Part shown: in pieces, positions 25,833 to 51,184 of the stretch
Layout of the letters: the number at the start of each line of letters is the position of its first letter
Numbering within the stretch: position 1 is the first letter of the stretch
From: an uncultured Lachnospiraceae bacterium
GTDB lineage: Bacteria; Bacillota; Clostridia; Lachnospirales; Lachnospiraceae
Length of the DNA: 64,000 nt
NCBI GenBank assembly: GCA_902779395.1
Contig: CACZBK010000006.1
Location: 62,001 to 126,000 of the forward strand
Direction of reading: 5' to 3'
Program-made: the position numbers and the translations under genes
The notes under the pieces: model-generated
Seen by the model: the letters and a program-made list of their open reading frames with translations, nothing else
What the model was told of the DNA's origin: nothing
Database searches by the model: none

Positions 25833-27219
25833 AAACATAATGCTCCAGAAGATATTGTCTGTCATTGTGTTCCGGCTCATCCAGGACATCCTCAAGCATT
25901 TCTGCCAGGATACGCCCCATATCGGGTCCCGGTTTTATTCCCGCGTCCATCAGGTCATGTCCGCCAACAGCCAGATCCTTTATGCTTATACATTGCTTTT
26001 TAGCCAGTATCAGAGGGTATTGTTCCCTGAGCTTTGCTATACGGGCCAGCTTTTCCTCCCGCATAAATGTACTCTGCGCCAGGCAGTCAGCCTCCTGAAC
26101 ATAAAAGATATACGGAAAACATTCTTCACCCATTCTGTTCATGGCACGCCGCACAGATCTTTCATCCGTATCATAACGGTCCTCATGATTTTCCACAAGG
26201 CGCACCACTTTTTTTATGGTATCGTTATCATATTTAAGACGGCGAAGGATCTCCTCAGCCATCTTTGCACTTCCGTGAGGATGCCCTTTAAAATGTGCCA
26301 CTCCGTCTTCATCAACAGTCTTATATTCCGGCTTTGCTATATCATGAAACAGCATCGTAAGACGCAGTATCCGTAATGCACGCGTATACTCACCGGCAAA
26401 TTCTTTTTTCAGAAGCTCCGTATTGATGCTCATCAGCGAATGAAGAAGATGCTCACCTACGGTATACATATGGTGGGGATTTTCCTGGGTAGCAGTCATC
26501 GTCACATCCCATTCGGGAAGAATGTATTTCGTTAGTCCGCTTTCGTAAAAAAGCTTAAACCTGTACGGATGTTCACTTATCAGCAGCTTTTCCGCCTCAA
26601 CTCTTATACGCTCCGCACTTACAAATCTGATATTCGGTGCCAGCTCCTTAATGGCATTCCAGGTATCATCCTCTATCACTGCATCCAGCTGGGCGGAAAA
26701 GCGTATGGCGCGCATCATACGTAATGCATCCTCCGTAAAACGCTCCTTCGCATCTCCCACACAGCGTATCACACCGGCTTTCAGATCGTCTATACCGCCA
26801 TGCATATCCACAATGCCCGCACCGGGAGAATAAGCCATGGCATTAACGGTAAAATCCCTGCGCTTTAAGTCCTCTTTAAGGCTGGCGGTAAACTCCACTT
26901 CCTTCGGATGTCTGCAGTCCTCATATACACCGTCGATACGATAGGTTGTAACCTCAAAGCCCTGCTGTTCATGGTTTTCCCGCATCAAAACAGTTACCGT
27001 TCCGTGCTGTATGCCGGTATCCACGGTACGCTTAAATACGGCCTTCACCTGTTCGGGAAGAGCCGAAGTCGTGATATCCCAGTCGCAGGGAGTTCTGCCA
27101 AGGATAAGATCCCTGACACATCCGCCCACTATATATGCTTCATATCCGGCATCATTCAGCAGCCCGATTATCTTAAGCGCCCCTGCCGGTATCTTATCAT
27201 CAAAATTATCAAAATTCAT
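25816..27219 (-). CDS. cca: CCA tRNA nucleotidyltransferase
   Basis: Adds CCA to tRNA 3' ends without a template. Class II features: VGGCVRDLILGR (31-42) with the G-G nucleotide anchor, catalytic Asp46 and Asp48 in DWD, the RRDFTVNAMAY motif, and the DALRMMRAIRFSAQL neck. At 467 residues it also includes a C-terminal HD domain (LTMLFHDIAKP, GHPHGSAKMAE, VENHEDRY), which in other family members has phosphatase or 2',3'-cyclic phosphodiesterase activity. ATG at 27219 lies within the end of the preceding aminotransferase gene. Confidence 0.94.
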   Translation of the reverse strand: MNFDNFDDKIPAGALKIIGLLNDAGYEAYIVGGCVRDLILGRTPCDWDITTSALPEQVKAVFKRTVDTGIQHGTVTVLMRENHEQQGFEVTTYRIDGVYEDCRHPKEVEFTASLKEDLKRRDFTVNAMAYSPGAGIVDMHGGIDDLKAGVIRCVGDAKERFTEDALRMMRAIRFSAQLDAVIEDDTWNAIKELAPNIRFVSAERIRVEAEKLLISEHPYRFKLFYESGLTKYILPEWDVTMTATQENPHHMYTVGEHLLHSLMSINTELLKKEFAGEYTRALRILRLTMLFHDIAKPEYKTVDEDGVAHFKGHPHGSAKMAEEILRRLKYDNDTIKKVVRLVENHEDRYDTDERSVRRAMNRMGEECFPYIFYVQEADCLAQSTFMREEKLARIAKLREQYPLILAKKQCISIKDLAVGGHDLMDAGIKPGPDMGRILAEMLEDVLDEPEHNDRQYLLEHYVYEKKA

Positions 27220-46427: not shown

Positions 46428-47912
46428 CTATGCGCTTATCCTTATAGCCTCATAACGTTCACAGTTTATTACCTGCTTCATGGCCTCAACAGGAGTCAGT
46501 CCTATGCAGCTTAACATCTGCTTAAATACTGCGGCCGACTGTCCGGAGCAAAGCTGTACCCCCTTTCTGCTGCTGTCTGCATGAAACAGATCATGACGGC
46601 TGTTCACATTCCAGAAGATCACATTCGGTATCTCATATCCTGCCTTGCGGTACTTATCACGCATCTTATCATAAAATGTCCATTTTTTGTTACCGCACCG
46701 GTCTATCTCCATATCCGATATCACAATGATGGATCTGACCATATCTTCTTTGGGTGTATGGTTCTTTTGTGCCAGTTCCAGCACTTTTAAAAATGCAGCC
46801 TGCAGATCGGTATTCATACCCCATTTAGACTTTGCTATCGATGAGAGTTTCTGCTGCAGTGTTTCTCCTTTTACCGATATGATCTGCGGCTCGTTTGAAA
46901 AGGTCATGAAAAGATTATGGTAATCTCCCTTATTATGCTCCGCGAAGTACAGCGCCAATCCAAGAGAACTGGCCATCGGACGTCCTATCATAGAACCCGA
47001 TACATCCGCCATTACTATGGCATTGACCCCCTCATCCACATATTCGGGAAGAGCTCTCCACTGAGCTTCAAGAACACCGTTCTCTTCTTTCGAAAGCTTC
47101 GCGATCGTTGCATTCCAGGAAAGAGACAGATACTTTTCAACTATATCATAAGGATACAATGTGGCTGAGTGTATCTTTTCTTCACCTTTGAGCGCATTCT
47201 CCACATAAGTCTTAAAACGTTCTTCGTCATGACGATAAAAAGCCGTACGATATATCATCATTGCACGGGAGGGTACGGATGAATAGCTTATCTGATCCCA
47301 CGCTCCTGCACTCATAAGAGCTTCTACTATACCTATATGTTTACGCATGCGGCGGACTATACGCTTGAATTCATATACCGAATATCCCAGCTTATGGGCA
47401 GTAAGTATACCAAGCTTGCGTGTTTTTTCCGAACTGGCATCGGCAGTCTTTATCCATTTTGCAAGGAGTGATATTGCATGTCCTTCCTCCATGTTACGCC
47501 TGTCTTCCTCAAATTGGAGCTTCATGGCCGCCCACATTTCCGATTCGAGCTGTGTGCCTGTCAGCTCGTAAAGATCATCGTAGCGGCCATAAACACCTAT
47601 CAGATCAAGATTTGCGCGCAGGCTCTCGGGATGATCCTGAGCCATGTATCGTAACAGGATACGGAATGTTCTCCGTTCACCAAGACCTCCCCGCACATCG
47701 CGGCCATAGAAAGCCAGCTTAGTTGCAAAAAGTGCATCTTCTTCATATGCATCGGCAAAGAGACGCTCTATACGTCCTTCATCAGATTCACGCAGTGCAC
47801 CCATACAGCCGAAAAGATCCAGGCATGCATCATTTGTAGTATTGAGTGCCACAGCACCGTTTTCAGTTCGTGTAAATGCCGCTTCTTCCTTAAGTATTTC
47901 TGCAAAACTCAT
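46428..47912 (-). CDS. DUF2828 / Ro60 (TROVE)-like protein with vWA domain
   Basis: 494 residues. The helical N-terminal two-thirds (NGAVALNTTNDACLDLF, FYGRDVRGGLGERRTFR, VYGRYDDLYEL, ISLLAKWIKTADASS) matches DUF2828, which has the layout of the TROVE RNA-binding ring. The C-terminal von Willebrand A domain keeps a full MIDAS: DVSGS (303-307), Thr368 in GMNTDL and ISDMEID. Ro60 proteins bind Y RNAs and misfolded RNAs. AAGGAGG precedes the ATG. The 5' region encodes tRNA-like RNA folds, and WYL regulators diverge. Whether it is a true Ro60 orthologue or a parallel family cannot be decided by eye. Confidence 0.8.
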   Translation of the reverse strand: MSFAEILKEEAAFTRTENGAVALNTTNDACLDLFGCMGALRESDEGRIERLFADAYEEDALFATKLAFYGRDVRGGLGERRTFRILLRYMAQDHPESLRANLDLIGVYGRYDDLYELTGTQLESEMWAAMKLQFEEDRRNMEEGHAISLLAKWIKTADASSEKTRKLGILTAHKLGYSVYEFKRIVRRMRKHIGIVEALMSAGAWDQISYSSVPSRAMMIYRTAFYRHDEERFKTYVENALKGEEKIHSATLYPYDIVEKYLSLSWNATIAKLSKEENGVLEAQWRALPEYVDEGVNAIVMADVSGSMIGRPMASSLGLALYFAEHNKGDYHNLFMTFSNEPQIISVKGETLQQKLSSIAKSKWGMNTDLQAAFLKVLELAQKNHTPKEDMVRSIIVISDMEIDRCGNKKWTFYDKMRDKYRKAGYEIPNVIFWNVNSRHDLFHADSSRKGVQLCSGQSAAVFKQMLSCIGLTPVEAMKQVINCERYEAIRISA

Positions 47913-47935
47913 TTCTTTTTACCTCCTTAGATCCA

Positions 47936-47985
47936 GGACGCTGAATCATAATCCATAATGATCATTTGTTTGCTGAATGCGTCCC
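47936..47985 (-). other. Leader hairpin next to the DUF2828/Ro60-like ribosome site
   Basis: GGACGC (47984-47979) pairs perfectly with GCGTCC (47941-47936), enclosing a smaller AUCAU/AUGAU hairpin. The outer stem ends about 7 nt before AAGGAGG (47928-47922). It could modulate translation or form the 3' end of the RNA region. Confidence 0.5.
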
Positions 47986-47999
47986 ATTTTGTTTCTTCA

Positions 48000-48081
48000 T
48001 GACACATTATTCCTGTATTCCGGATTCGAACCGGTTCTATCAAAATGATATTTACCATGGAATAGTCTGCTGTATGTGTCA
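48000..48081 (-). ncRNA. Structured RNA module 2 with tRNA T-arm mimic
   Basis: 82 nt closed by perfect 8-bp arms UGACACAU / AUGUGUCA. Inside, UAUUCC pairs with GGAAUA (6 bp, stacked on the 3' side, with a 9-nt bulge on the 5' side). The multiloop carries a UAUCA-UUU-UGAUA hairpin and a T-arm copy, CCGG-UUCGAAU-CCGG (48034-48020), whose 7-nt loop is a canonical tRNA T loop. No anticodon arm. All stems are Watson-Crick, which argues for a selected fold. Read as a Y-RNA-like partner of the adjacent Ro60-like protein; that role is inference. Confidence 0.65.
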
Positions 48082-48088
48082 CCTATCA

Positions 48089-48200
48089 GCAGGGGCCGGA
48101 TTCGAACCGGCAACACCGGCGTCTGATCGCATTTTATTTGCTGCAAAGACCACTTACTCATGATCCGTTTCTTCGTGCTCTACCCTTTGAGCTACCCTGC
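48089..48200 (-). ncRNA. tRNA-like RNA module 1 (candidate Y-RNA / YrlA-type tRNA mimic)
   Basis: 112 nt on the minus strand. Acceptor-like stem GCAGGG / CCCUGC (6 bp), linker UA, a D-arm GCUC-AAAGGGUA-GAGC with the conserved GG and flanking A's, and a T-arm GCCGG-UUCGAAU-CCGGC. Together they supply the residues for a normal tRNA elbow. Where anticodon and variable arms should be (about 22 nt) there is a 64-nt segment, probably one or two stem-loops (for example UGGUC / GAUCA). No encoded CCA follows. Bacterial YrlA RNAs carry just such a tRNA-like module and are encoded beside Ro60 genes, as here. Confidence 0.7.
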
Positions 48201-48208
48201 ATGTTCAC

Positions 48209-48217
48209 AAGATAACA
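48209..48217 (-). promoter_or_regulatory. Possible extended -10 promoter for the RNA region
   Basis: TGTTATCTT on the minus strand lies 8 nt before the first base of the acceptor-like stem, so a transcript could start at the RNA's 5' end. No clear -35 is present. Confidence 0.4.
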
Positions 48218-48286
48218 GAAGTCAGGAAAATAATCATTTCAAAAAAGCTGCGAACGTGCTTTATATCCTGATCTTGTCTTTTTTTG

Positions 48287-48315
48287 TTGAAAAGACTTCA
48301 TTCTCATACTACAAT
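48287..48315 (+). promoter_or_regulatory. Promoter giving a leaderless WYL mRNA
   Basis: TTGAAA (48287-48292) and TACAAT (48310-48315), 17-bp spacer. The expected start site, 7 nt after the -10 box, is the A of the ATG at 48322. There is no Shine-Dalgarno site, so the message is probably leaderless. Confidence 0.75.
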
Positions 48316-48321
48316 AATGAC

Positions 48322-49611
48322 ATGTCGGATTTTCAGGAACTTATAAAAAACATAGATAAATGCCGTGATTATGTAAGGGATTTCTTTGTATACGGCTTTA
48401 AGAGCCGGGGGGATTTCCGCGGGAAAAGCGCGCGCACATATGATGATGAACGGCGACGTATCGTCAGCTGGCTGCCGGACCATATACGGGAAGACTTTAC
48501 CGAAGGAGGCAAGTCCAAGAATATTTCTCTTCAGATCGATCAGAAAAAACTGGATACAAATCCGCTCTTTAGTATATGGCAGACAAAAAGTTTCACTTCC
48601 AGGGATCTGAGCCTGCATTTCTTTATATTAAAAATACTGGAACAGGCTGATACTGAGTTTTCGGCAGCCGAACTTACCGATATACTTATGAATGAATACG
48701 CTTATGAGGCAGATCTGCAAAGCGTACGAAGGAAATGCAACGAGTATGTGGAAGAAGGTCTGCTTTCTGTACGTAAAGAAGGAAAGACAACCCTCTATCG
48801 CAGGGAAGTCTGTTTTTCAGAACTGCCCTGTGCAAAAGAACTGCTGGATCTGATATGCTGTTTTCAGATGTATCAGCCGCTTGGCATCATTGGCTATACC
48901 ATTATGGCCGGACAGAACAGGAATAACAGCATCTATCGTGTCAAGCATGGTTTTCCTGCATTTACCCTTGAAGATGAGATACTTCTGTCTCTTCTTTACG
49001 CTATCCATAACAGATACAAAGTCAGAGTACGTATTCAAAGCAACAGGAGAACTGCGGAAGAAAGCAGTCTGAAAACCGGATATCCCTTACAGATCTTTGT
49101 CAGTACACGAAGCGGACGACGTTTTATATGTATGCACACCTCAGGTAAGAAAAAAGCGCATTTCACATGTATGCGACTCGATCAGATCAAGGAAGTGACG
49201 ATACTTTCGGATGAAAAAACTGCAGATAGTTACTTCAATGAGCAGCTGTCTGAATACAAACAATATGTATGGGGCGTATCATTTGCACCTATGATCCCCG
49301 GACGTGCACCACTTCAGAAAGTGATCCTTACGATACATGCAGATGAAAATAAAGAAGCTTATATAATACAGCGTCTGCTGCGTGAAGGTGAAGGCGGTAC
49401 AGTGAACAAAACGGATATAAACACCTTCCGGTATGAAAAAACCGTGAAGGATGCTATGGAAATGTTCCCGTGGATACGCAGTTTTACAGGCAGGATCGCA
49501 GATATGAAAATATATGCGACAGACGGAGAACGCCTGCTTGAGGAGAACAAAACTCTGGAAAAGATCTTCTTTTCGGATCTGGAAAGATCATATCTTTTAT
49601 ATGGGATTTAG
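48322..49611 (+). CDS. WYL-domain transcriptional regulator, first of a pair
   Basis: 429 residues. It begins MSDFQELIKNIDKCRDYVRDFFVYGFK, with an RTYDDERRRIVSWL segment shared by a clostridial WYL subfamily. A winged-helix-like part follows (LKILEQADTEFSAAELTDIL, VRRKCNEYVEEGLL), then the WYL region, where the ligand strand motif is degenerate (GYPLQIFVSTRSGRRFICM). WYL proteins bind nucleic acid or nucleotides and control defence and RNA/DNA damage genes. Start by promoter position and family N-terminus; the in-frame extension from 48160 crosses the RNA region. Divergent from the Ro60-like gene. Confidence 0.8.
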   Translation: MSDFQELIKNIDKCRDYVRDFFVYGFKSRGDFRGKSARTYDDERRRIVSWLPDHIREDFTEGGKSKNISLQIDQKKLDTNPLFSIWQTKSFTSRDLSLHFFILKILEQADTEFSAAELTDILMNEYAYEADLQSVRRKCNEYVEEGLLSVRKEGKTTLYRREVCFSELPCAKELLDLICCFQMYQPLGIIGYTIMAGQNRNNSIYRVKHGFPAFTLEDEILLSLLYAIHNRYKVRVRIQSNRRTAEESSLKTGYPLQIFVSTRSGRRFICMHTSGKKKAHFTCMRLDQIKEVTILSDEKTADSYFNEQLSEYKQYVWGVSFAPMIPGRAPLQKVILTIHADENKEAYIIQRLLREGEGGTVNKTDINTFRYEKTVKDAMEMFPWIRSFTGRIADMKIYATDGERLLEENKTLEKIFFSDLERSYLLYGI

Positions 49612-49619
49612 AAAAATAT

Positions 49620-50582
49620 ATGGAAAAACTTTTTTCGGAAATCTACAACCGGTATTTCCTGATCATAAATCTTCTTTTGTCCAAAAGAGGACCGATCAGT
49701 CAGAAGTTTATTAAGGACACCGTTCAAAAGCACGGCTTCGGAGAAAGCCTGCTCTTTCTTCTTCCAAGACTCTCAGCAAACGAGTGGGAATTATTTGAGG
49801 ATGTAAACGGATCCTTTCATTCAATGATCCCAAACGGAATATCACTTCCTCTCAGCCGCCTTCAAAAACGCTGGTTAAAGGCTGTTTTGAGAGATCCCAG
49901 AGCCGGCTTGTTTTTGAGCACCGATAACATCAACATCCTGAATGAAGCCCTTAAGGATGTTTCACCTCTTTTTTATCAGGAAGATTTTTATTATTATGAC
50001 CGTTTTTCAGATGGAGATGATTATTCCGATACAAATTACCGCATGAATTTCCGTATGATACAAAATACGATCTTTCAAAAAAGCCCGATCCGGATAAGCT
50101 ACGAAACACGAAATGAAAGAATAACCAAACTTACTGTATTGCCTCATCATCTTGAGTATTCCGTTAAGAATGACTGCTTTCGTTTACTTTGCGATGTTTT
50201 GGGACAAAACCGGCCGCAAAAACATATCCTTCGCTTATCCCGCATAAAAAGTATTTCGATCCCGAAAACCGGTATTTGTTCGGATCATGTACACAGTCCC
50301 GAGAAAAAGCCGGAAAAGATCACATTAATGATAACAGATAAGCGTAATGCCCTTGAACGGGTAATGCTGCAGTTTGCCGATTATCAAAAAAACACCGTAC
50401 GCCTGGATGATAGTAATTACCGCTGCGAGATTTTTTACGATAAAGACGATGAAACGGAGCTTCTGATAGAGATCCTTTCCTTTGGGCCTGTGATCCGGGT
50501 GATCGAAAACGATCACTTTATAGAACTTATAAAAGAACGCCTGCGTAAACAGGCGCTCTTATCAGGATCTGAATCCGGCTGA
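49620..50582 (+). CDS. WYL-type regulator, second of the pair
   Basis: 320 residues, 8 bp after the first WYL gene and related to it in layout. Helical N-terminus (IYNRYFLIINLLLSKRGPISQKFI), a central linker, then a WYL-like beta core (IRISYETRNERITKLTVLPHHLEYSVKNDCFRLLCDV) and a C-terminal WCX-like extension. It has no strong ribosome site (only weak AT-rich DNA) and may depend on coupling to the first gene. Paired WYL genes that form heteromeric regulators are known in Actinobacteria (PafBC). Confidence 0.75.
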   Translation: MEKLFSEIYNRYFLIINLLLSKRGPISQKFIKDTVQKHGFGESLLFLLPRLSANEWELFEDVNGSFHSMIPNGISLPLSRLQKRWLKAVLRDPRAGLFLSTDNINILNEALKDVSPLFYQEDFYYYDRFSDGDDYSDTNYRMNFRMIQNTIFQKSPIRISYETRNERITKLTVLPHHLEYSVKNDCFRLLCDVLGQNRPQKHILRLSRIKSISIPKTGICSDHVHSPEKKPEKITLMITDKRNALERVMLQFADYQKNTVRLDDSNYRCEIFYDKDDETELLIEILSFGPVIRVIENDHFIELIKERLRKQALLSGSESG

Positions 50583-50584
50583 TA

Positions 50585-51184
50585 TCAGATCGGGATCCGT
50601 TCACTGATATCATCCCAGTCAGTACATCTGAAATAATTATCTCCGGGCACTTCACATCCTCTGTTCCATGGCCGGTCATATATCATAACTTTTAAATCAG
50701 GCAGATGATCGAAAAACCTGAATGCCAATGGCGAATCCTCAATAGCATAATCAAATCTCATCCTGTAATAATCATCCGGTTCAAGACTGAAATCATTTTT
50801 TTTATAAAAGGATTCCCTCCCATATTTGTTCAGGCAAAAAAGATCTACACGTTTTAATCCATGCTCATCAAGCCAGGATCGCGACACCTCATAAGTACTG
50901 AAGGGACGTCCCGTAATGACACATATCTCATGCCCTTTATCGATCCACTCATTCAGAACACGACCTGCTCCCGGTGTTTCTTCATATGCAGACAACTCCT
51001 CCGGCCGGTGACCTTCTTTCATCAGCAGACTGTATTCTTCGTCTGTAAGTTTAAATGAATCCTGAAGATTAAAAAAATACATCTTATCATACGGAACAGT
51101 TATACCGAACAGTCTTTTTGCCAGCCCCGAGAATGCTCTTGCGGTTTCACACAGACAATCATCATAATCTACATAAAATCTCAT
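50585..51184 (-). CDS. HAD-superfamily 5'-nucleotidase-like phosphatase (NT5C type)
   Basis: 199 residues. Motif I VDYDDC (nucleophile Asp6 and acid Asp8), motif II VITGRP, and motif IV EDSPLAF fit the HAD fold with the small cap of 5'(3')-deoxyribonucleotidases. It is tail-to-tail with the WYL pair (2-bp gap), so it is not in that unit, though a nucleotide phosphatase next to an RNA-repair-like locus is notable. Substrate unknown. Confidence 0.75.
   Translation of the reverse strand: MRFYVDYDDCLCETARAFSGLAKRLFGITVPYDKMYFFNLQDSFKLTDEEYSLLMKEGHRPEELSAYEETPGAGRVLNEWIDKGHEICVITGRPFSTYEVSRSWLDEHGLKRVDLFCLNKYGRESFYKKNDFSLEPDDYYRMRFDYAIEDSPLAFRFFDHLPDLKVMIYDRPWNRGCEVPGDNYFRCTDWDDISERIPI

Follow-up and report, generated by a model that had tools for sequence, protein, structure and literature searches.

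A DUF2828 protein with a predicted Ro60-like fold and the tRNA-mimicking RNA units encoded beside it in a Lachnospiraceae bacterium

A 64,000-nucleotide stretch of contig CACZBK010000006.1 from an uncultured Lachnospiraceae bacterium (hereafter the window) was found to encode a DUF2828/DUF7788 protein with a predicted Ro60-like fold, directly preceded on the strand of its gene by three RNA units. Units sharing one docking element were found upstream of homologous genes in other bacteria and in phages, with over a third of the units copying a piece of a tRNA (an anticodon stem-loop, a T-arm or the elbow of a whole tRNA), and the genes were linked to those for WYL proteins and RtcB. The explanation that we favour, and hold to be fairly probable, is that protein and units form a Ro60-like ribonucleoprotein (RNP) showing tRNA mimics in RNA damage and repair, the mimics likely being decoys or sensors. 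The original prediction for this region, made from the sequence letters, had read it as a Ro60/Y-RNA-like module; that interpretation was supported, but it had missed the shared stem with its ACAGCAA motif, the tandem arrays and the anticodon-arm mimics, and had also overlooked RtcB beside relatives, carriage by phages and a resemblance to Dictyostelium Class I RNA.

The protein and its upstream RNA units

The 494-residue protein matched DUF7788 (8e-45) and DUF2828 (8e-43) in Pfam, with VWA_2 at 2.5e-5 (25.3 bits, slightly below the cut-off of 27). Five residues of the metal ion-dependent adhesion site (MIDAS) of its von Willebrand factor A (vWA) domain (D302, S304, S306, T367 and D399) were invariant in an alignment of 45 sequences, in agreement with the intact MIDAS that had been predicted. 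The AlphaFold2 (AF2) model made from this alignment (predicted local distance difference test, pLDDT, 90.9; predicted template modelling score, pTM, 0.90) showed the HEAT-type ring plus vWA fold that characterises Ro60/TROVE proteins, which bind Y RNA on the outside and misfolded RNA in the ring. Foldseek returned 435 PDB chains for the model at E<=10, and 10 of the 10 at E<=1e-3 were Ro60/TROVE, with the alignment of the predicted model to Ro60 running over approximately its full length (2.9e-8, template modelling score, TM, 0.60/0.56). The TROVE sequence domain PF05731 was not found in the window protein, where DUF7788, DUF2828 and VWA_2 were the only Pfam matches at E<=0.1, and no TROVE match was found anywhere in the window's own genome. 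The proposal that a DUF2828 protein here represents Ro60 is supported by the modelled fold, not by TROVE sequence.

The same fold occurs among viruses, in phages and giant viruses. Relatives are encoded in 676 of 50,697 phage records, some of which carry the label 'Ro-like RNA binding protein', so existing records already note that the protein resembles Ro60; the mycobacteriophage proteins so labelled and phrog_850 belong to the same family as the window protein. Excerpts of a jumbo-phage paper describe a Ro60-related open reading frame in the authors' own phage, and those of a Listeria phage paper (PMC12282133) likewise call its homologue Ro60-related. Among the matches listed, literature on DUF2828 concerned plants only, and that on DUF7788 proteinases.

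Unit 1 scored 39.5 bits with the tRNA model RF00005 (cut-off 29) when 131 nt were searched alone. It has a 6-bp acceptor stem, a D arm and a T arm and, where a cloverleaf would have its anticodon arm, a 58-nt insertion made of a docking stem followed by GCAGCAA. Across eight relatives, 96.8% of its 24 pairs were formed (83.7% in shuffles) and 12 of the 24 showed changes on both sides (4.8 in shuffles). Units 2 and 3 each have a closing stem with the same motif as this docking stem, that of unit 2 enclosing a T-arm and a GGTAAAT segment; by kind, the window thus holds a tRNA body with the docking stem as its anticodon arm, a T-arm unit and a plain hairpin. Neither ARAGORN nor an Rfam scan at gathering scores, both run over the entire window, gave a match at the units, and the z-score for folding of the 318-nt upstream strand (-2.4, with 2 of 100 shuffles equally good) was by itself modest. 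The original prediction had placed two tRNA-mimic folds here: the structured RNA and both minus-strand T-arm copies were confirmed, while the number of units is three and the feature that they share is the stem plus ACAGCAA, not the T-arm.

A shared docking element and tRNA-arm mimics

To the window we compared 99 host loci, made up of 80 GTDB loci (the best 80 of 108) and 19 loci from 150 Lachnospiraceae genomes, with one pair among them (L057 and L087) being the same contig. The most widespread 7-mer within 900 nt upstream of the genes was ACAGCAA, found in 86 of 96 loci (86 of 95 without the duplicate contig; 3 of the 99 were excluded as their upstream sequence was below 250 nt), against 5 loci antisense and 11 downstream. 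An exact 6-bp partner lay 10-200 nt downstream of 191 of the 215 ACAGCAA copies, compared to 19% and 18% in controls; this count is the unbiased test of pairing, as the units of the A2 alignment were selected for complementarity, which makes covariation on it partly circular. The element is a 7-8 bp stem whose 5' strand is followed by single-stranded nn-ACAGCAA and whose 3' strand is followed by U-G. A looser unit rule gave 313 matches in 91 of the 99 loci (29, 44 and 31 matches in antisense and downstream controls), and a stricter rule gave 217 closed units in 76 loci, with a median length of 76 nt and up to 7 units per array. The T-arm was also considered as the sole conserved feature (within 1500 nt, sense in 55 of 99 loci, antisense in 0), yet many arrays lack one, so the stem-ACAGCAA element and not the T-arm is the common part.

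The model R1, built from 63 host units only (including an L001 unit that is a close relative of window unit 3), matched 63 of 80 viral loci (a set containing four duplicate pairs) at E<=0.01; the matches numbered 139, and every one lay on the strand that codes for the protein. In ten annotated phages it found units in eight at E<=1 and in seven at E<=0.01; there was none in the Vibrio phage (one weak unit by pattern) or the Klebsiella jumbo phage, and none of the ten loci has an RNA feature marked at its ACAGCAA units. Over the 3.58-Mb genome of the window, units 2 and 3 were the only matches at E<=1 (E 0.03 and 0.06). R1 matched 11 of the 150 Lachnospiraceae genomes, 8 of the 19 with the protein and 3 of the 131 without it, and each of the 8 has a match beside the gene. 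This genome-wide co-occurrence (p 2e-6) is not a fair test, since six of the eight positive genomes (G016, G020, G033, G089, G092 and G143, not G112 or G129) had supplied units to the model, and it therefore shows mainly that matches elsewhere are rare. In the five loci of true TROVE genes (of six) that were fetched with flanks, R1 gave no match at E<=0.01 (there were two weaker ones, E 0.34 and 0.54), and three of the five had YrlA-like matches, all under the cut-off (E 2e-5, 2e-5 and a weak 0.06). Conservation of the RNA beside homologous genes, on which the original prediction had been made to depend, was borne out, the element being kept, specific to the sense strand and present at most homologues in bacteria and phages.

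Some R1 matches lay away from the genes. Single weak matches in two genomes without DUF2828 (G096:C19:161918-161972 and G034:C43:35779-35847) are possibly due to chance or trans-encoded, contig 220 of G092 carries a match apart from that genome's DUF2828 gene, and two tandem units lie directly 5' of RtcB, near a contig end, in G135 (L197 5772-5989), a genome with no DUF2828 match.

For counts of mimics in unit interiors, 28 of the 217 host units were dropped for exceeding 110 nt, leaving 189. Anticodon loops, taken as hairpins with a 7-nt loop [CU]-U-NNN-R-N and T-loops excluded, were present in 49 of the 189 host units and 45 of 131 distinct viral units; shuffling gave 4.95 for the host set (maximum 10 in 100 runs) and 4.09 for the viral one (maximum 10). 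Swapping U33 for other bases reduced the 49 and 45 to 6-10 host and 3-9 viral loops, and control segments yielded 2 of 189 (random coding) and 7 of 181 (downstream). A strict form of the loop was found 27 times in sense host units versus once in reversed ones, and an independent unit rule for viral loci gave 25 of 122 sense and 0 reversed; setting the lenient rule against a reverse-complement control (41 against 49) was uninformative because the loop pattern is nearly its own complement. The host hairpins had a 5-bp stem in 36 of 49 cases and A at position 34 in 4 of 49, with anticodons including GUC (7), GAA (6), CAU (5) and GCC (4). Viral and phage anticodons (50 loops in 154 units, a list omitting 6 of 139 viral matches, being copies in L130, L145 and L177, and 3 of 26 phage matches) included UUU (16), UGA (5), GUU (4), UGG (4) and GCU (4). 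T-arms were found in 28 of the host and 7 of the viral units (shuffles 0.1).

Whole-tRNA units differed in order. Unit 1 runs acceptor 5', D arm, docking stem, ACAGCAA-type motif, T arm, acceptor 3', and a YrlA-like unit in L093 (1204-1299, 45.7 bits) runs docking stem, ACAGCA, T arm, acceptor 3', loop, acceptor 5', D arm, docking stem. The two are circular permutations of each other (alignments compared by eye), which suggests that it is the spatial arrangement, rather than the chain order, that is conserved.

Neighbouring genes and the putative promoter region

Genes within four of the DUF2828 gene, counted in 97 of the 99 loci, included homologues of the two divergent genes of the window, WYL-1 and WYL-2 (Table 1), as well as RtcB in 38, there no more than two genes away, and RlaP in 5 (Pfam was used to check a single RtcB and a single RlaP member). 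Among 43 loci with 4 kb on either side, 33 had a WYL-like gene of any kind and 23 had RtcB; the order of the window (WYL-2, WYL-1 divergent, then the gene) was seen in 5 of the 43, and that order with RtcB between in 9. The two window copies, predicted earlier as WYL genes, were recognised by PADLOC WYL models, while Pfam WYL was under the cut-off or absent for both. The assignment was clearer in relatives, as Pfam found WYL in 11 of 17 of the WYL-1 type, and WCX in 21 of 22 and WYL in 8 of 22 of the WYL-2 type. The WYL-1 reading frame is open from 48160, and with homologues as a guide its start is probably 48322 instead. The original prediction had also noted the lack of RtcB: there is none within 46,428-50,582, although it stands near the gene in the 38 relatives above and two RtcB genes lie elsewhere in the window's genome.

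Table 1. Features of the DUF2828 region, in window positions.
Feature	Position	Strand	Evidence
DUF2828/DUF7788 Ro60-like ring plus vWA protein, 494 aa	46428..47912	-	Pfam, AF2, Foldseek, PHROG phrog_850
Ribosome-binding site TAAGGAGGTA	47920..47929	-	Sequence
RNA unit 3, closed hairpin, stem GGACGC/GCGTCC, TTCAGCAA, ends CCTGG	47933..47985	-	R1 24.3 bits; RF01414 22.6 bits, E 0.084
RNA unit 2, stem TGACACA/TGTGTCA, ACAGCA, ends ATG	47998..48082	-	R1 25.7 bits
T-arm of unit 2, 4 bp	48020..48034	-	
RNA unit 1, tRNA-like RNA	48089..48200	-	RF00005 39.5 bits, E 1.6e-7; covariation in 8 sequences
T-arm of unit 1, 5 bp	48095..48111	-	
Docking element of unit 1, strand order reversed: GATCAT-loop-GTGGTC then GCAGCAA	48137..48166	-	
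D arm of unit 1	48177..48193	-	
Extended -10-like site TGTTATCTT	48209..48217	-	Kept as TGnTATnnT in L001-L004
Block upstream of array, candidate regulator site	48232..48255	-	23 nt identical in L001-L004
WYL regulator 1	48322..49611	+	PADLOC WYL 2.3e-7; homologues in 52/97 loci
WYL regulator 2	49620..50582	+	PADLOC WYL 8.4e-11; homologues in 49/97 loci

Transcription of the array is predicted to start just before unit 1, from the extended -10-like site. On the divergent side, a sigma-70-like promoter (TTGAAA-17-TACAAT, 48287-48324) ends 7 nt before the likely start codon of WYL-1, so that the WYL-1 mRNA may be leaderless, and next to the WYL genes lies a small 5'-nucleotidase-like protein (50585-51184; NT5C, 25.9 bits). 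The RtcB loci elsewhere in the genome, viewed by eye, contain a macro-domain-like and a vWA protein (L104 4069-8883) and an AAA ATPase and a vWA-like protein (L105 1627-5687); ACAGCAA was not found at either locus.

Known systems and competing explanations

The bacterial Ro60 (Rsr)/Y RNA/YrlA/rtcBA systems resemble the present one in their ring-vWA fold, in an adjacent structured RNA with a tRNA-like part and in RtcB near many loci. They differ in that the protein here is DUF2828/DUF7788 and not TROVE by Pfam, and in the ACAGCAA docking element, the tandem arrays, the anticodon-arm mimics and WYL in place of RtcR. The YrlA (RF02553) gathering score of 69 was reached neither by the window (14.3 bits) nor by the best relative (47.8). 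The permuted tRNA of YrlA, with T arm, closed acceptor and D arm in the protein-binding stem, was found in some relatives (L093, LeBron and EFGrKN) and not in the window, where unit 1 is unpermuted and relates to the YrlA-type order by circular permutation. The excerpted PMC12282133 refers to earlier reports of Y RNAs in mycobacteriophages; on Y RNA or YrlA in phages, both this and the excerpted jumbo-phage paper point to Chen 2014 and Sim 2018.

The excerpts of PMC12282133 also bear on Listeria phage CKA15, whose CKA15_055 (L212 3691-5211) is a DUF2828 homologue by position and length. They report 20 peptides of CKA15_055 in purified particles, a hint that the protein is delivered with the phage, and state that three non-coding regions at <=2 kb upstream of CKA15_055 and on its strand had most reads, with Y RNAs offered as one explanation. 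R1 found three units between CKA15_056 and CKA15_055; by offset, the sole region with printed coordinates (26,236-26,727) falls on ROOL RNA and away from the units. A ROOL RNA was seen in Listeria phage P100 (L189 1459-2010; 86 bits, below the cut-off of 99.1), and it matches by offset this same region, the most transcribed non-coding one of CKA15. Apart from the CKA15 Y RNA suggestion, no description of the units was recognised in the literature among the matches listed.

Dictyostelium Class I RNA (RF01414) is, like the units, a short RNA closed by a stem (of 6-7 bp) with a variable interior; it has CCUUACAGCAA beside its 5' strand and a 3' end C-U-G(U), where the units have nnACAGCAA and C-N-U-G. 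It differs in being eukaryotic, in having separate genes with an upstream promoter element and in its partner, Rnp1A, and we know of no DUF2828 partner for it. The excerpted PMC7919456 describes a terminal stem of 6 bp next to an 11-nt motif, a variable interior, and AAG and CUGU as the ends, and reports the RNA as found in Dictyostelia only. Judged against that account, the units have the terminal stem, the adjacent motif of ~11 nt and conserved ends, departing from it in the variable first letters of the motif and in a 3' end with one additional letter. The Rfam match of window unit 3 to RF01414 came unprompted, and a second window match lies outside the units (48216-48299, 17.7 bits, E 1.4). 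In nine phage loci 5 of 88 Rfam matches were RF01414, all at previously predicted units, and in the array of Aeromonas phage LAh_6 it accounted for 7 of 16 matches (4227 families searched), at exactly the seven predicted units (best E 0.003 in 1090 nt); the seven are not independent because units within one array are related. One host array matched at 1 of its 7 units, and 15 host loci (69 kb scanned) gave no RF01414 at E<=10; the link is strongest in phage arrays. The RF01414 gathering score of 41.5 was never reached (best 29.6 bits in LAh_6, window 22.6, host array 20.4). Going by these motifs, the binding sites of the units and of Class I RNA are probably akin, with descent not proven.

Enzymes that cut anticodon arms exist. 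According to excerpts of PMC12409363, PrrC and AriB cleave tRNA-Lys(UUU), with products of AriB also including Thr UGU, Asn GUU and Pro UGG, the last as a probable minor one. The Lys, Asn and Pro anticodons occur among the viral loops, an overlap with AriB targets that is no test of a decoy role. T5 tRNA-Lys, which counters PARIS, is alike in being a proposed counter to anticodon nucleases with Lys UUU prominent; the PARIS-countering phage tRNAs are full tRNAs that resist cutting (PMC12409363, excerpts), whereas here isolated arms lie by a Ro60-like gene.

In the explanation that we favour, the DUF2828/DUF7788 protein probably binds every upstream unit through the shared docking element, and the rest of each unit would be an exchangeable display part. 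The RNAs would be transcribed just before and together with the protein gene, from a promoter that may be under the control of the divergent WYL proteins. As RtcB stands beside many relatives, the RNP would most likely belong to a tRNA damage response in which the mimics bait or sense enzymes that cut or handle tRNAs and RtcB seals the cut products, and phages may deploy the RNP against host anticodon nucleases.

Several observations count against this account. The match to the Ro60 ring is partial (TM about 0.6, 13% identity), and the window's own units are weak under R1 (24-26 bits) and have no anticodon arm. By rule no unit was found in 8 of the 99 host loci (3 of these with <170 nt upstream), and R1 had no match in 17 of the 80 viral loci or, at the strict setting, in 11 of the 19 protein-bearing genomes. 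Neither a T-arm nor an anticodon arm was found in 119 of the 189 host and 82 of the 131 viral units, and Thr UGU, a prime AriB target, is missing among the viral loops listed. RtcB is not beside the gene in the window, nor in 59 of the 97 loci (many truncated), and RlaP is absent from the window's genome.

The RNP could instead be a Ro60/Y RNA quality-control particle without a decoy role, as for Deinococcus Rsr and Y RNA, in which the tRNA parts would recruit tRNA-modifying enzymes, RNases such as polynucleotide phosphorylase (PNPase), or substrates, and the RNP would survey structured RNA. The Ro60 fold is as expected for such a particle, a Rsr-PNPase tether is described in excerpted literature, and permuted tRNA units score as YrlA, under the cut-off (L093 45.7, L195 47.8 and LeBron 39.8 bits). 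Taken alone, however, it leaves unexplained the loops with many different anticodons and the excess of Lys UUU (16 of 50 viral and phage loops), and we judge it rather unlikely, though deserving serious attention.

It is improbable that the units are a cis-acting leader, with structures in the 5' untranslated region binding the protein and controlling its own translation. In 39 of 76 loci the last unit does stop 19-48 nt short of the start codon, and no terminator was found between the window array and the gene, but some phages (LeBron, HY02 and a Staphylococcus phage) also carry units 3' of the gene, downstream units number 37 in 23 of the 80 viral loci, two units are directly 5' of RtcB in L197, and arrays reach 7 units. 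Functionless, decayed tRNA genes might account for unit 1 scoring as a tRNA and for arrays often being near phage tRNA genes; against them stand the conserved docking element, the strand-specific R1 matches and the 12 of 24 unit 1 pairs in which both sides have changed, and we give such decayed genes very little credence, with plain decayed tRNA ruled out by the covariation of unit 1.

Taken more broadly, and only tentatively, DUF2828 could be a second Ro60-like branch with its own RNA class in bacteria, phages and social amoebae, its tRNA-arm mimics, chiefly anticodon arms, baiting or sensing tRNA-cutting enzymes, and Dictyostelium Class I RNAs would be the eukaryotic members that bind a DUF2828 protein. 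In the scanned loci no closed unit attains an Rfam 15 gathering score, apart from the tRNA part inside some, and the units extend tRNA mimicry to single anticodon loops. They also provide a lead beyond Dictyostelia for Class I RNAs, which the excerpted publication presents as unique to that group. A protein family that had no name gains a fold, and with it a candidate partner RNA and a role that can be tested, with several examples in tractable laboratory hosts, for instance through phages of B. subtilis and M. smegmatis.

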